DNA of 59,124 bases from Anabaena subtropica FACHB-260 (GTDB lineage: Bacteria; Cyanobacteriota; Cyanobacteriia; Cyanobacteriales; Nostocaceae). This document shows positions 8,185-59,124 of the stretch, piece after piece. Location: assembly GCF_014697105.1 (NCBI RefSeq), contig NZ_JACJRF010000033.1:1-59124 (forward strand), in the 5' to 3' direction. A program made the position numbers and the translations under genes. Every line of letters starts with the position of its first letter. Position 1 is the stretch's first letter. The notes under the pieces were generated by a model. The model was not told where the DNA came from. It saw only the letters and a list, made by a program, of their open reading frames with translations, and did no database searches.

Positions 8185-9201
8185 ATGGCGGTTAATTTAC
8201 AACAAGCGATCGATATTGGTAAGTATTTAGTTACGCAACGTTTTTTAGGACGCAAACGTTTTCCCTTGGTATTGATGCTAGAACCACTTTTTCGCTGTAA
8301 CTTAGCGTGTTCTGGTTGTGGAAAAATTCAGCATCCGACAGAGATATTGAAGCAAAATTTGACTCCCCAACAGTGCTTCGCCGCAGTAGATGAGTGTGGC
8401 GCACCAGTGGTTTCTATTCCTGGGGGAGAACCCCTGCTGCATCCCCAGATTGACGAGATTGTCAAGGGTTTAGTCGAACGGAAAAAATATGTTTACTTAT
8501 GTACCAATGGTTTGTTATTAGAAAAAAACCTAGATAAATTTCAACCATCACCTTATTTGACTTTTAGCGTCCATTTAGATGGGTTGCGGGAATGGCACGA
8601 TAAATGTGTAGACAGGCAAGGGGTATTTGATATTGCGGTGAAAGCCATCAAAGCTGCTAAAGCTAAAGGGTTTCGCGTCACCACCAACACCACTATTTTT
8701 GAGGGTTGCGATCCCAAAGAAATGCAAGAGTTTTTCGACTTCTTGGAAACCCTCAAGACAGATGGCATGATGATCTCTCCTGGTTATGGTTACGACTGGG
8801 CCCCAGATCAAGACCATTTCCTCAAACGAGAGCAAACACGCGCCCTGTTTCGGGAAATCCTCACCCCCTACAAAACTGGCAAGAAAAACTGGAACTTCAA
8901 CCACAATCCTTTATTCCTAGATTTTCTAGTAGGTGAGAAAGATTATGAATGCACACCTTGGGGTAGCCCTAGTTATAGTGTTCTTGGTTGGCAAAAACCT
9001 TGTTATCTCTTAAATGAAGGACATTACACCAGCTTCAAACAATTGCTAGAAGAAACAGACTGGAGCAAATATGGTCGTGCTAGTGGTAATCCTAAGTGTG
9101 CCGATTGCATGGTTCACTGCGGCTATGAACCCACAGCCGCAATGGACGCTATGCAGCCACAAAATATTAGCCGTTCTTTGGGGAGTGTTTTTGGTAGATA
9201 G
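8185..9201 (+). CDS. hpnH: Adenosyl-hopene transferase HpnH (radical SAM)
   Basis: HpnH joins the 5'-deoxyadenosyl group to diploptene, the first step of hopanoid side-chain extension. The [4Fe-4S] motif CX3CX2C is C38, C42 and C45 counted from ATG 8185, followed by the SPIRASM-like tail cysteines CADCMVHC near the C-terminus. A GTG at 8173 would add four residues. I prefer ATG 8185 because AGGAG at 8169-8173 lies at usable distance and MAVNLQQ is the usual family beginning. It ends the RND-hpnA-hpnH operon. The squalene-hopene cyclase gene is not in the window. Confidence 0.9.
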
Positions 9202-9212
9202 GATGGGAGAGG

Positions 9213-9296
9213 ATTCGTTTCGTAGTAAGAAGGACTTTAGTCCTTTTTTGTTCGTGGAGCGTCTCAAAGAGAGAACTAAAGTTCTCACTACAAACC
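9213..9296. repeat. Palindromic MITE-like repeat, copy 1
   Basis: This 84-bp unit begins TTCGTTTCGTAGTAAG and ends CTCACTACAAACC. It contains two small hairpins, AGGACT/AGTCCT and GAGAACT/AGTTCTC, and its ends are imperfect inverted repeats. A second copy lies 30 bases downstream in the same orientation. It follows hpnH directly and may act as a terminator or processing site for that operon. Confidence 0.75.
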
Positions 9297-9327
9297 AGGC
9301 TAATTGTAGCAATGTAAAGATAGTAGT

Positions 9328-9408
9328 ATTCGTTTTGTAGTAAGGACCTTAGTCCTTTTTTGTTTACGGAGCGTCTCAAAGAGAGAACTAAAGTTCTCAC
9401 TACAAACC
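9328..9408. repeat. Palindromic MITE-like repeat, copy 2
   Basis: This is a direct copy of the unit at 9213-9296, with a few substitutions and a 3-base difference in the first hairpin. The right half, from GGAGCGTCTC to CACTACAAACC, is identical in both. It ends about 35 bases before the DUF2237 gene. Confidence 0.75.
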
Positions 9409-9444
9409 TATGCACCAACCATTGAAAAAATTAAGGCATTCAAT

Positions 9445-9819
9445 ATGGCAAAGGCAAAAAACGTCATCGGCACAGACTTAGAGCTTTGTTGTTCCTCTCC
9501 CGTCACTGGGTTTTATCGTGACGGCTTTTGTCAAACAGGTGCTTATGATACGGGGATGCACGTTGTTTGCGCTCAGGTGACAGCAGAATTTCTAGAGTTT
9601 ACCAAATCTCGTGGTAATGACCTGAGTACGCCCCATCCTGAGTATAATTTCCCCGGTTTGAAACCAGGCGATCGCTGGTGTTTATGTGCAGCCCGTTGGC
9701 AAGAAGCCCTGGAAGCTGGAGTTGCACCACCTGTAATCCTGTCAGCCACTCATGCTAGAGCCTTGGAAGTCTCTTCTCTCGCTGATTTGAAAGAACACGC
9801 CCTACTTAATGGGGAGTAA
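9445..9819 (+). CDS. DUF2237 family protein
   Basis: This is a short, complete cytosolic protein of 124 residues. Recognisable family features are the start region KNVIGTDLELCC, the segment GFYRDGFCQTG, and the conserved PGDRWCLCAARWQEA block in the second half. Several conserved cysteines (CC near residue 15, C29, C42, CLC near 90) suggest metal binding or redox chemistry, but no function is established that I know of. It ends exactly where the left 152-bp inverted repeat begins: the last base of its TAA is the first base of the repeat. Confidence 0.8.
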   Translation: MAKAKNVIGTDLELCCSSPVTGFYRDGFCQTGAYDTGMHVVCAQVTAEFLEFTKSRGNDLSTPHPEYNFPGLKPGDRWCLCAARWQEALEAGVAPPVILSATHARALEVSSLADLKEHALLNGE

Positions 9820-9970
9820 TACCAATTCAAAATTCAAAATTCGTCTTGAAAAGTTTCCTACGGCGGGAAACCCGCCTACAGAACTTTCCGCAAAATTCAA
9901 AATTAAGAAATCTAGATTTTGCAAAGGTTTCTGGGTTTGGATCTCCATCAGAATTTTAGTGAAATGGTAT
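9819..9970 (+). repeat. 152-bp dispersed element, left inverted copy
   Basis: The unit begins ATACCAATTCAAAATTC and ends GAATTTTAGTGAAATGGTAT, so its own ends are short inverted repeats (ATACCAnTTC). Inside is a GGCGGG-AAA-CCCGCC hairpin (9862-9876). A copy in opposite orientation at 11058-11209 differs at only about 5 of 152 positions. It looks like a non-autonomous mobile element, but no transposase is nearby. Confidence 0.85.
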
Positions 9971-10041
9971 GAGCAATCAATATTTTCCTCATACCCCAAT
10001 GTTTTTGCTGTCACTTTGCCAAAATATACAAAAACTTGCCG

Positions 10042-10096
10042 CGATTTTTGCCAATATAATATATTATTTCCCAAAAAAATCGCTTGGCAAAAATCG
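10042..10096. promoter_or_regulatory. 13-bp inverted repeat over an AT-rich promoter-like region
   Basis: The arms CGATTTTTGCCAA (10042-10054) and TTGGCAAAAATCG (10084-10096) are perfectly complementary and flank a 29-bp segment containing TATAATATATTAT. The right arm ends 2 bases before the preferred start codon of the next gene. This is a plausible operator for that gene, perhaps autoregulatory since the product has HTH-like regions; it could also form an mRNA hairpin that hides the start. Confidence 0.5.
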
Positions 10097-10098
10097 GC

Positions 10099-10851
10099 AT
10101 GAGTGAAAAAACATTAGAAAGTAACGGGAAGGCGTTTCTCGTTCTACTTTTGCCAATATCGTTTTTGGTCATTTTCTTAGTTTCTACCTGGAGATTTTTG
10201 CTTGCTCTGATTGTCCTGGTCATTGGTTTCAAAATTTTTCAGGAATATCAATGGCAACAGTGGTGTCAGCAAGTTAACCCAATTTTCAGTCAGTTAATTA
10301 GGGAAAACCAAGGCAAAATTACCCCAATGGATTTGGCGATTCGTGGCAACTTCCCCGGCCCGACGGCAAAACGTTATTTAGATGGTAAAGCTTCAGAATT
10401 TGGTGCAAGTTTACTACCAGCTGGAGAAGGAGGTGAAGTTTACTACTTCATCACAGCAAGTATTTTAGGAAATATCTTAGATAGCAGTGATCCTGTTAAA
10501 GAACTTGCGCCTCAACCAGTAACTACGGAAATGCGATCGCTCTTAGCGCCACCGTCACCACCAGAAGCAGTAGTAACAGAACCCGAAACTGAAACCGAAC
10601 CTGAATTACCACCACCCGCGACTCATCAAGAAGTTAAGCCAAACCTGGAAAGACAGCTAATTTTTGGCTCTCTAATTCAATCAGAATTGGCAAAACGGCT
10701 TAGTGTTTACTCCAGTACTGTCTATAAACGTCGTAATGATCCAGATTTTCCCGAATGGACTCGCACTCGTGATCCTGATGGAATTGCCTGGACTTTTTCC
10801 GAAAGAACTAAGGAATTTTTCCCATTAGAAGAAAATGAAGGCAAAAATTAA
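10099..10851 (+). CDS. Membrane-anchored protein with two HTH-like regions (uncharacterised)
   Basis: I do not recognise a named family. From ATG 10099 the product is 250 residues (a TTG at 10084 would add five). Residues about 12-45 are hydrophobic and probably form one or two membrane segments. Residues about 60-118 (KITPMDLAIRGNFPGPTAKRYL, then GEVYYFI) look like a winged helix. Residues about 130-172 are a Pro/Glu-rich linker. Residues about 175-235 (QSELAKRLSVYSSTVYKRR, then DPDGIAWTF) look like a second helix-turn-helix of excisionase/MerR style. It could be a membrane-tethered regulator or a DNA-membrane tether. It is the only gene between the two 152-bp inverted repeats. Confidence 0.7.
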   Translation: MSEKTLESNGKAFLVLLLPISFLVIFLVSTWRFLLALIVLVIGFKIFQEYQWQQWCQQVNPIFSQLIRENQGKITPMDLAIRGNFPGPTAKRYLDGKASEFGASLLPAGEGGEVYYFITASILGNILDSSDPVKELAPQPVTTEMRSLLAPPSPPEAVVTEPETETEPELPPPATHQEVKPNLERQLIFGSLIQSELAKRLSVYSSTVYKRRNDPDFPEWTRTRDPDGIAWTFSERTKEFFPLEENEGKN

Positions 10852-10852
10852 T

Positions 10853-10884
10853 CAAAACTCCATCCCTTCACGGGTGGAGTTTTG
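10853..10884 (+). terminator. Rho-independent-type hairpin
   Basis: The arms CAAAACTCCA (10853-10862) and TGGAGTTTTG (10875-10884) pair perfectly right after the stop of the membrane-anchored HTH gene. The descending arm itself contains TTTT, but there is no long U-run after it. Confidence 0.6.
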
Positions 10885-10894
10885 TCAGTGGTCA

Positions 10895-11016
10895 GTAGTC
10901 AGTGGCGTTCACGCAGCGTGTCCCCTTGGGACAAGACACTTAAAAACCACACACTAGGAGATGGGGTATTAAACCAGATCCAAAACAACTGACAACTGAC
11001 AACTAACAACTGACAC
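10895..11016. repeat. Small dispersed repeat plus heptameric tandem repeats
   Basis: The stretch GGCGTTCACGCAGCGTGTCC (from about 10902) is a typical Nostoc small dispersed repeat. It is followed at about 10986-11016 by short tandem units of the CTGACAA type. With the terminator and the right 152-bp repeat, this fills the 360-base gap before pyrD; no gene is visible in it. Confidence 0.6.
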
Positions 11017-11057
11017 ACGCAGTGGATCAAAAATTACCCAATAGTCCATGACTACTG

Positions 11058-11209
11058 ATACCATTTCACTAAAATTCTGATACAAATCCAAACCCAGAAA
11101 CCTTTGCAAAATATAGGTTTCTTAATTTTGAATTTTGCGGAAAGTTCTGTAGGCGGGTTTCCCGCCGTAGGAAACTTTTCAAGACGAATTTTGAATTTTG
11201 AATTGGTAT
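11058..11209 (-). repeat. 152-bp dispersed element, right inverted copy
   Basis: This is the reverse complement of 9819-9970 with about 5 mismatches, clustered near the centre and toward the inner end. It ends three bases before the pyrD stop codon. Together the copies form a 1.39-kb inverted-repeat-bounded segment sitting exactly between two convergent genes. Confidence 0.85.
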
Positions 11210-11212
11210 GAC

Positions 11213-12346
11213 TCATTCACCCTTAAATTCTAAACCTACAGCTTCGCTGATGGAATTTAGTTCATGTTCTTCTAACTTGGCAAGCAACCCAGTTAAAATA
11301 CGACGTACCATCATTGGGCCTTCATAAATCCAGCCTGTATACACTTGGATCAGGCTGGCTCCAGCAGTAATTTTTGTCCAAGCATCTCCAGGGGTAAATA
11401 TACCGCCAACCCCAATTATGGGTATTTGTCCTTGGGTTTGCTGCCAAATAAAACGAATGATTTCCGTAGAGCGATCGCGCACTGGCGCACCGCTAATTCC
11501 ACCAGCTTCTTCTTGGGGTGATTTACCTGTTTGCTCAATTACTTGAGTTTTCAGTCCATCACGGCGAATGGTCGTATTAGTGGCAATAATCCCCGCTAAC
11601 TGGTAGGTTTTAGCTAATCCGATAATGTCCGCGATCGCTTCCCATGATAAATCCGGCGCTATCTTGACAAATATTGGCTTATGTGAATTATTTTCTTGTT
11701 GTAATACATCTAATATAGAACCGAGCATAGAAGCATCTTGGAGCGATCGCAAACCCGGAGTATTGGGAGAAGACACATTAACTACAAAATAGTCTCCCAA
11801 CTCCTTCAGTAAGCGAAAACTATTTAAATAATCTTCTGCGGCTGCTTCTAGAGGTGTCACCTTAGATTTACCCAAATTGACACCTATAGGTATGGAAAAC
11901 TGCCCTTGTTCCTGAGCCAAACGCGCCGCCATTGCTGCTGCACCATGATTATTAAAACCCATACGATTAAGAGCAGCATAATCCAACGGCAAGCGAAACA
12001 GGCGCGGAGGGGGATTACCAGGCTGGGGGACAAACGTCACAGTTCCCAATTCCGCAAACCCAAAACCCAAACTAGACCAAATCCTAGCAGCTACACCATC
12101 TTTATCAAAACCAGCCGCTAAACCGACAGGGTTAGAAAACTTCAAACCAAACAAACTCTGTTCCAGACGGGAATCTTGTAGACACAGAGACTTTTGTAAT
12201 AAATTCTGCACCCATCTAGTACTTGAACTATTACCTGTTTGCGAAAGCCAACTAAAACTCCGCATAGTCTGCTGATGCAGCCACTCCGGATCAGCCTTCA
12301 CCAAATCAAATAAAACTGGACGAAGGGCAAATTTATATATATCCAT
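11213..12346 (-). CDS. pyrD: Quinone-dependent dihydroorotate dehydrogenase
   Basis: This is class 2 DHODH, which oxidises dihydroorotate to orotate with a membrane quinone in pyrimidine synthesis. Visible motifs are the N-terminal helix region ([13 protein letters not shown]), AAGFDKDG in the FMN barrel, the catalytic-loop segment [12 protein letters not shown] with its Ser, IATNTT, and the phosphate-binding IGVGGI. An upstream in-frame ATG at 12397 would add 17 residues translated from spacer repeats; the family start MDIYK fixes ATG 12346 as more likely (377 residues). It is divergent from the GAF-domain gene, and its stop abuts the right 152-bp inverted repeat. Confidence 0.93.
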
Positions 12347-12519
12347 AGTCATTAGTCGGTTGCTATTTACAGTAATGAGTAATGAGTAGTGAGTCAATAC
12401 TCCCCCTGTTCCCCTGCTCCTTCTCCTCCCACTCCCCCACCTCTTTTATCCCGAAGTATAAAAAAACGCTTGTAAAGATATTAGTGAGTGTAATTTGGGC
12501 ATCTTATATATTACAAGCT

Positions 12520-58697: not shown

Positions 58698-59017
58698 GTT
58701 TCAATCCCTGATAGGGATTTTAATTAGTTGGAACAATTGCGATATTAGTTGTATCGAAAGCGAGGGAGGAGTTTCAATCCCTGATAGGGATTTTAATTAA
58801 TTGGAACTTGAGTCTGGTAACAGCATAGATGTATTTGAAGTAGTTTCAATCCCTGATAGGGATTTTAATTAATTGGAACGTTCTGGATTAGGTTTGGGCG
58901 CGGGAACAATTGCGTTTCAATCCCTGATAGGGATTTTAATTAATTGGAACATTCTGGATGTTGTACTTCCAGGTCTTTTACTAAAGTTTCAATCCCTGAT
59001 AGGGATTTTAATTAATT
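58698..59017 (+). CRISPR. CRISPR array: five 37-bp repeats, four spacers, last repeat truncated
   Basis: Repeats lie at 58698-58734, 58771-58807, 58843-58879, 58914-58950 and 58986-59017. They begin GTTTCAATCCCTGATAGGGA and end TTAATTAATTGGAAC, with a 7-bp stem AATCCCT/AGGGATT. The spacers are 36, 35, 34 and 35 bases. Repeat 1 has one A-to-G change (TTAGTTGG). The fifth repeat loses its last five bases (TTCAATACC instead of TTGGAAC), which marks the old end, so the leader is probably on the ugd side. No cas gene is in the window, so the array depends on cas genes elsewhere. The repeat style is of the type I-D/III kind common in Nostoc. Confidence 0.95.
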
Positions 59018-59124
59018 CAATACCTTAGCCAAAATAAGAGGATGAAGAGAGAGGGCCGATGTAGTAGAGTTATTGTCTCTCACAACGACAACTCAAAAAC
59101 CACAATCAGCCCATGCCCGATATC
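59018..59124. other. Right edge after the CRISPR array
   Basis: A little over 100 bases follow the degenerate last repeat. No coding frame or further repeat can be supported. Confidence 0.4.

Follow-up and report, generated by a model that had tools for sequence, protein, structure and literature searches.

The window analysed here, a 59,124-nt contig (NZ_JACJRF010000033.1) of the 5.8-Mb draft genome of Anabaena subtropica FACHB-260, contains two near-identical inverted repeats on either side of a single gene, an arrangement that an earlier note on this DNA had described as a cassette. We consider it very likely that the repeats represent two separate insertions of a modular miniature inverted-repeat transposable element (MITE) of the IS630 type beside an old gene, and that the resemblance to a cassette is coincidental. 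The features of the locus are the following.

9445–9819, plus strand: gene for a DUF2237 protein (PF09996; Pfam match)
9817–9819, plus strand: copy 1, left target duplication (TAA), doubling as the DUF2237 stop codon (read from the flanks)
9820–9969, plus strand: MITE copy 1 (TACCAATTC ... GAAATGGTA), 150 bp, with a hairpin module in its left arm
9842–9890, plus strand: hairpin module of copy 1, between CAAAATT heptamers
9970–9972, plus strand: copy 1, right target duplication (TGA), differing from the left one at a single base
10099–10851, plus strand: inner gene (ATG at 10099), encoding a conserved protein of unknown function, outside the mobile element
11056–11058, plus strand: inner-side target duplication of copy 2 (TGA)
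11059–11208, minus strand: MITE copy 2, 150 bp, in opposite orientation to copy 1
11138–11186, minus strand: hairpin module of copy 2, with 0/49 differences from that of copy 1
11209–11211, plus strand: outer-side target duplication of copy 2 (TGA), identical to the inner-side one
11213–12397, minus strand: pyrD, dihydroorotate dehydrogenase (PF01180; Pfam match)

The repeats had been delimited at 152 bp (copy 1, 9819–9970 on the plus strand; copy 2, 11058–11209 on the minus strand). At these limits the two copies differ at exactly 5 of 152 positions (93, 97, 125, 127 and 128), positions 1–92 being identical. Within the window, exact inverted matches reached 92 nt at most, compared with maxima of 14–18 nt in 20 first-order Markov resamples, which excludes a chance origin. 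Both copies carry the short terminal inverted repeats ATACCA(A/T)TTC that the earlier note had read from them, and the gene that they enclose is indeed single and without a named family above cut-offs. The further statement that both copies lie in one gap between two convergent genes, touching their stop codons, was correct only in part. Copy 1 separates the DUF2237 gene from the inner gene, and copy 2 separates the latter from pyrD. Contact with a stop codon was found for copy 1, the left duplication of which is the DUF2237 TAA, but not for copy 2, the outer duplication of which ends one base short of the pyrD stop codon (11213–11215).

The element proper spans TACC to GGTA, with the same TNA trinucleotide on both sides. 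At 150 bp, without a transposase and with terminal inverted repeats TACCAATTC/GAAATGGTA, it has the make-up of a MITE, in agreement with the view of the repeats as non-autonomous elements. Multiple dispersed copies, as expected of a MITE, are present: the same genome yielded 45 complete or partial matches to the 152-bp unit (40 of 192 first-look candidates were scored), and matches occurred in 13 of 13 genomes of the genus. Target duplications were assessed in 49 distinct pairs of strict ends taken from the loci of earlier searches, among which some may be chance end pairs and sister genomes may share an insertion. Identical flanking trinucleotides were observed in 37 of these, all of them TNA (TTA 12, TAA 12, TGA 7, TCA 6), and the next three trinucleotide blocks outward were equal in 3, 1 and 2 of the 49 pairs. 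Pairs with the size of an insertion sequence (IS) had identical flanking trinucleotides in 8/8 cases. At the locus itself the flanks are TGA/TGA for copy 2 and TAA/TGA for copy 1.

The neighbourhood of the inner gene was compared in 59 genomes (this one and 58 relatives), from which the best 30 loci (this one and 29 from relatives) were taken. The inner gene was convergent with pyrD at 26 of the 29 relative loci (27/30 including that of the window), and at the other three (L037, L051 and L057) no pyrD was present inside the 1.5 kb taken. Upstream of the inner gene, the window and five of the 29 relatives (L032–L036) have the DUF2237 gene, on the same strand as the inner gene; neither gap around the inner gene contained a MITE copy in these five, as judged by eye and by BLAST over the 29 relative loci. 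The same BLAST comparison returned one 77-bp hairpin match, in L052 and outside both gaps, and otherwise fragments of up to 25 bp. A block directly upstream of the inner gene, starting at about 10014 in the window, appeared by eye to be conserved in all six loci. In a set of named genomes, the organisms of which overlap with those of the 30-locus set, the best 80 of 85 loci were used. Past the end of the inner gene, pyrD lay on the opposite strand in 79 of the 80, at a distance of 1.8 kb in L191; the remaining locus, L226, runs off its contig 132 bases after the inner gene. Matches to the repeat within these 80 loci were fragments of at most 46 bp. These comparisons indicate that the inner gene is old and would have been present before the MITE insertions. 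A gene kept in place and orientation by relatives without the repeats is the outcome by which the earlier note had said its own reading would be overturned.

The alignment of related elements, once viewed, led to a division of each copy into an 87-bp backbone and the hairpin module. Over the backbone, copies 1 and 2 differ at 5/87 positions. The backbone of copy 2 is 1/87 away from each of two elements in other species (L231 in genome G003 and L092 in G008), and that of copy 1 is 1/80 away from an element of its own genome (L004). As the backbones are closer to different elements elsewhere than to one another, two independent insertions are indicated. For the same reason, the near identity of the copies, which the earlier note had taken as a sign of recent insertion or gene conversion, does not require that the unit as a whole was duplicated or converted on the spot.

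Movement of the family was assessed at sites where the flanks of an element were joined. Twenty-eight such sites were built and 10 were searched, yielding three clear empty sites (L123, L244 and L231) and one ambiguous case (L125); L241 gave a 71% gapped match, and no spanning match was listed for L232, L255, L260, L134 and L143. For L123, an IS copy in G008, the 157 bases of the joined flanks had full-length matches at 84% in seven places of G006, and the empty site aligned in G006 was ungapped, with CAA in place of the TAA of the filled site. For L244, a MITE in G008, the matches listed included a G003 site at 93%, ungapped over 155 columns, with TGA for TAA. For L231, a MITE in G003, the matches listed included sites in G008 and G005 that were ungapped across the junction (104 and 107 columns) with a single TTA, and in G006 and G002 the empty sites aligned with a gap of 2 bases, placed some bases to the right of the junction. 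Empty sites were thus found for the family with two MITEs and one IS. With a single trinucleotide at the junction, these sites indicate, at the level of sequence, that the family has been mobile since the divergence of the species concerned and that its duplication is 3 bp long. Around copies 1 and 2, the gaps of relatives were too diverged for a base-exact empty site.

Larger elements with the same ends and a transposase, which the earlier note had proposed as a search target, were found in the genus. They are 1.14 kb long, with TACCA(A/T)TTC ends and TNA duplications. One of them (L143) encodes a 356-aa protein that matched the NCBIfam IS630 model NF033545 at 200 bits (cut-off 100) as well as Pfam DDE_3 (PF13358). 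Over up to 30 bp, the right end of the MITE was 83–90% identical to the IS ends by BLAST. The MITE thus has ends in common with a full-length element of the IS630 family, as an IS630-derived element should. The TA target duplication typical of IS630/Tc1 was not observed, 3-bp TNA being found instead, which would represent a departure from the TA of IS630 and ISY100. In the genome of the window, contig C38 carries at its end an incomplete IS630-family transposase, which stops at the terminal sequence also seen in the MITE; this element is found at the ends of contigs C51 and C69 too (the loci of the three being L067, L071 and L072). The draft assembly seems to be broken by this repeated IS630-family element at the three contig ends. 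Other DDE_3 matches in this genome were located on C29, 46% identical to the C38 fragment, and on C98, where no TACCA(A/T)TTC-type ends were seen.

From these data we infer that the MITE is mobilised in trans by an IS630-family transposase in the genome of the window. Each 150-bp repeat would be the product of an independent insertion of a non-autonomous IS630-type MITE, which used a transposase supplied in trans and a TNA trinucleotide as target, the latter being duplicated on insertion; the inner gene would have been in place before either event. Since TNA includes TAA and TGA, insertion into a stop codon would restore a stop codon.

The structure of the MITE appears to be modular. Thirty listed elements were compared, chosen by a right-end pattern that insertions breaking the right end would escape; the left end of one of them (L253, 344 bp) looks wrong. 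Some elements consist of an uninterrupted 87 bp, to which copies 1 and 2 add the hairpin module between the CAAAATT heptamers of the left arm. Elements L092 and L231 have identical backbones (0/87), L231 being without a hairpin and the hairpin of L092 being 10/49 away from that of copy 2. Element L103 has a hairpin identical (0/49) to those of copies 1 and 2 in a backbone that differs from theirs at 18/87 and 15/87 positions, respectively. Judged from such comparisons, the histories of hairpin and backbone disagree. The slot of the 30 elements holds two to four heptamers alone, variants of a GTCTTG hairpin, or other inserts (L012, L241, L255 and L260, the last two beside CGCAATT-type heptamers). 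That all slot inserts are hairpins was borne out by folding for L092 and L255 (1/100 and 2/100 composition shuffles as good), and not clearly for L260, L012 and L241 (9/100, 18/100 and 29/100).

Related hairpins also occur outside this MITE, for instance at L015, L018 and L024. In the genome of the window, L007, L008 and L009 belong to another MITE type of 142–143 bp with the same hairpin, its right end resembling the C38 IS630 element (CTGTCGCA or CTGTCACA). As this second type carries it, the hairpin is common to more than one MITE type. Our reading is that modules have repeatedly and independently entered, or been exchanged at, one heptamer slot. The MITE would then consist of an 87-bp backbone with a CAAAATT slot in its left arm, occupied in these two copies by a 49-bp hairpin module that probably enters and leaves by short-homology recombination or by transposition between dispersed heptamer arrays. 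Tentatively, and with considerable doubt, the MITE can be pictured as a carrier with an exchange bay, where various short modules, including hairpins, would land and be swapped; mobile repeat families would then be carried in nested form while evolving separately, and the matching IS630 subgroup would use a 3-bp TNA in place of TA as its target.

Other explanations of the pair have to be weighed against separate insertion. Inverted copies of one element around a single gene are what a composite transposon, moving as one unit with the inner gene, would look like. Such a unit should be absent or relocated in relatives and flanked by one shared outer duplication. It was found neither absent nor relocated, since relatives without a MITE there keep the inner gene in the same place and orientation, and the pair has TAA on one outer flank and TGA on the other, whereas the two flanks of copy 2 itself are identical. 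The composite mobile unit of the earlier note is accordingly abandoned as barely credible. Inverted copies of 150 bp at 97% identity are also a plausible substrate for RecA-type recombination, by which the inner gene could be flipped in a fraction of the population. With respect to pyrD, however, the inner gene now faces the same way as at the 26/29 and 79/80 loci where pyrD was seen, and the flanking trinucleotides need one base change as they stand versus two if inverted, a weak argument made by hand. Inversion is thus possible in principle, with no sign of its occurrence here, and we regard it as highly improbable. Gene conversion after insertion, homogenising the copies wholly or in their left parts, would account for the identity of positions 1–92, for an extra heptamer that both copies have and that L003 and L004 do not, and for copy 2 being the whole element nearest to copy 1. 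The identical hairpin is nevertheless present in other copies (L003 and L103), the extra heptamer occurs in L091–L094 and L103, and the right-hand backbone was not homogenised, so that conversion is considered unlikely.

The repeats could alternatively be functional 3' end elements, terminators or messenger RNA stabilisers, kept beside stop codons. The target of copy 1 is a stop codon, copy 2 ends four bases from one, and several of 23 matches in the same genome lie at, or at most 16 bases from, the 3' end of a gene. Folded as RNA, the 150-nt repeat reached −35.8 kcal/mol (shuffle mean −26.6, z −2.5, 3/200 as good), and the hairpin alone (9842–9891) −16.0 kcal/mol (shuffle mean −9.9, z −2.4, 5/200 as good). 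In addition, the minus strand has a terminator-like site that begins at the inner boundary of copy 2 (11058–11038). Yet the region has three terminator-like sites, close to the shuffle mean of 2.3, and all of them lie outside the repeats; no Rfam match at gathering scores was obtained for 9000–12000 of the window. Facing stop codons were not clearly enriched among element sites: with open reading frames of at least 100 aa they were found at 2/49 sites versus 74/3325 intergenic TNA sites (p = 0.30), with 150 aa at 1/49 versus 63/4049 (p = 0.54), and with the addition of L019, a stop-codon target dropped by the strict-end rule, at 3/50 (p = 0.10). No clear sign of stop-codon targeting was therefore obtained. 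The predicted stability of the fold fits a palindromic element and gives no sign of function; a role at 3' ends appears improbable. The MITEs may have an effect on neighbouring genes.

Several observations weigh against two separate insertions of an IS630-type MITE. Flanking trinucleotides were unequal in 12 of the 49 strict-end pairs, copy 1 (TAA/TGA) among them, and the ambiguous site L125, compared with dispersed-repeat copies in G004, showed a single TCA together with a 3-bp difference two bases away. The left arm of the MITE matched IS ends over only 11 bp by BLAST, or 14 bp by eye with the C38 element, and in the same genome the IS with the closest ends was not found at full length, the copies on C38, C51 and C69 being partial. 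When elements are compared in full, the shared hairpin makes copy 2 the closest to copy 1 (5/150), ahead of L003 (6/143) and L004 (8/136, with an altered hairpin); for copy 2 the closest is L003 (3/143). A separate origin for copy 1 depends on few backbone positions and on a division made post hoc, and partial gene conversion could have produced the 92 identical left-hand positions. Insertions in two neighbouring gaps would also be a coincidence.

The inner protein matched no Pfam family above the cut-off (best YuiB, 16.4 bits versus 27), no NCBIfam model above the cut-off and no PHROG. It is strongly conserved, with a mean column identity of 72% in 30 sequences. Its structure model was poor (mean predicted local distance difference test score, pLDDT, 52.5; predicted template modelling score, pTM, 0.34); it could comprise a small helix-helix-strand-strand region, possibly a winged helix, preceded by a long helix at the N-terminus. 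Elsewhere in the window, two 72-nt direct repeats (9225–9296 and 9337–9408), 92% alike, lie just upstream of the DUF2237 gene and hold internal palindromes (GGACTTTAGTCC, GAACTAAAGTTC), possibly as members of another dispersed repeat family. Near the end of the window (58698–59031), an array resembling clustered regularly interspaced short palindromic repeats (CRISPR) contains five repeats beginning GTTTCAATCCCTGATAGGGATTTTAATTA, spaced at 71–73 nt.

Combined, these results describe an ordinary MITE pair around an old gene, with a modular slot and a TNA duplication as its noteworthy features. An apparent gene cassette with inverted-repeat borders can be two separate insertions, and the flanking trinucleotides together with the neighbours in relatives provide a simple test for such cassettes. 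With the heptamer slot, the spread of tiny gene-free repeats, by transposition or by short-repeat recombination, could be studied in a natural system that can be counted. Small dispersed repeats of cyanobacteria are reportedly nested in other repeats, an observation attributed to Elhai and colleagues in 2008.

Nezha (Zhou et al. 2008) is a cyanobacterial MITE for which mobilisation by ISNpu3-like elements through similar ends was proposed (PMC3049150); like the present element, here compared by description only, it is tied to an IS by its ends. In Anabaena sp. 90, 147 complete or partial MITEs of 77–541 bp were reported, 132 of them intergenic, and according to the authors these have no evident similarity to the ends of the ISs of that genome (PMC3542288), whereas the MITE described here has ends in common with IS630 elements of its genus. 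No description of this MITE was met in the accessible parts of the literature searched on cyanobacterial MITEs and IS630, and we do not claim that it is unpublished. IS630 and ISY100 of Synechocystis are described as inserting at TA and duplicating it (PMC2170065). The likeness lies in the IS630-family transposase of the full-length element with these ends, and the difference in the duplication, which is TA in those elements and a 3-bp TNA in the elements analysed here. A parallel to the slot is found in the P6b loop of the tRNA-Leu intron of lichen Nostoc, a region replaced repeatedly, in which insertions of side stem-loops favour one position among seven-base repeats (PMC4476775). In both cases stem-loops are found at one place among heptamers; those of the intron are other heptamers and lie in intron RNA, whereas the slot of the MITE lies in a transposable element.
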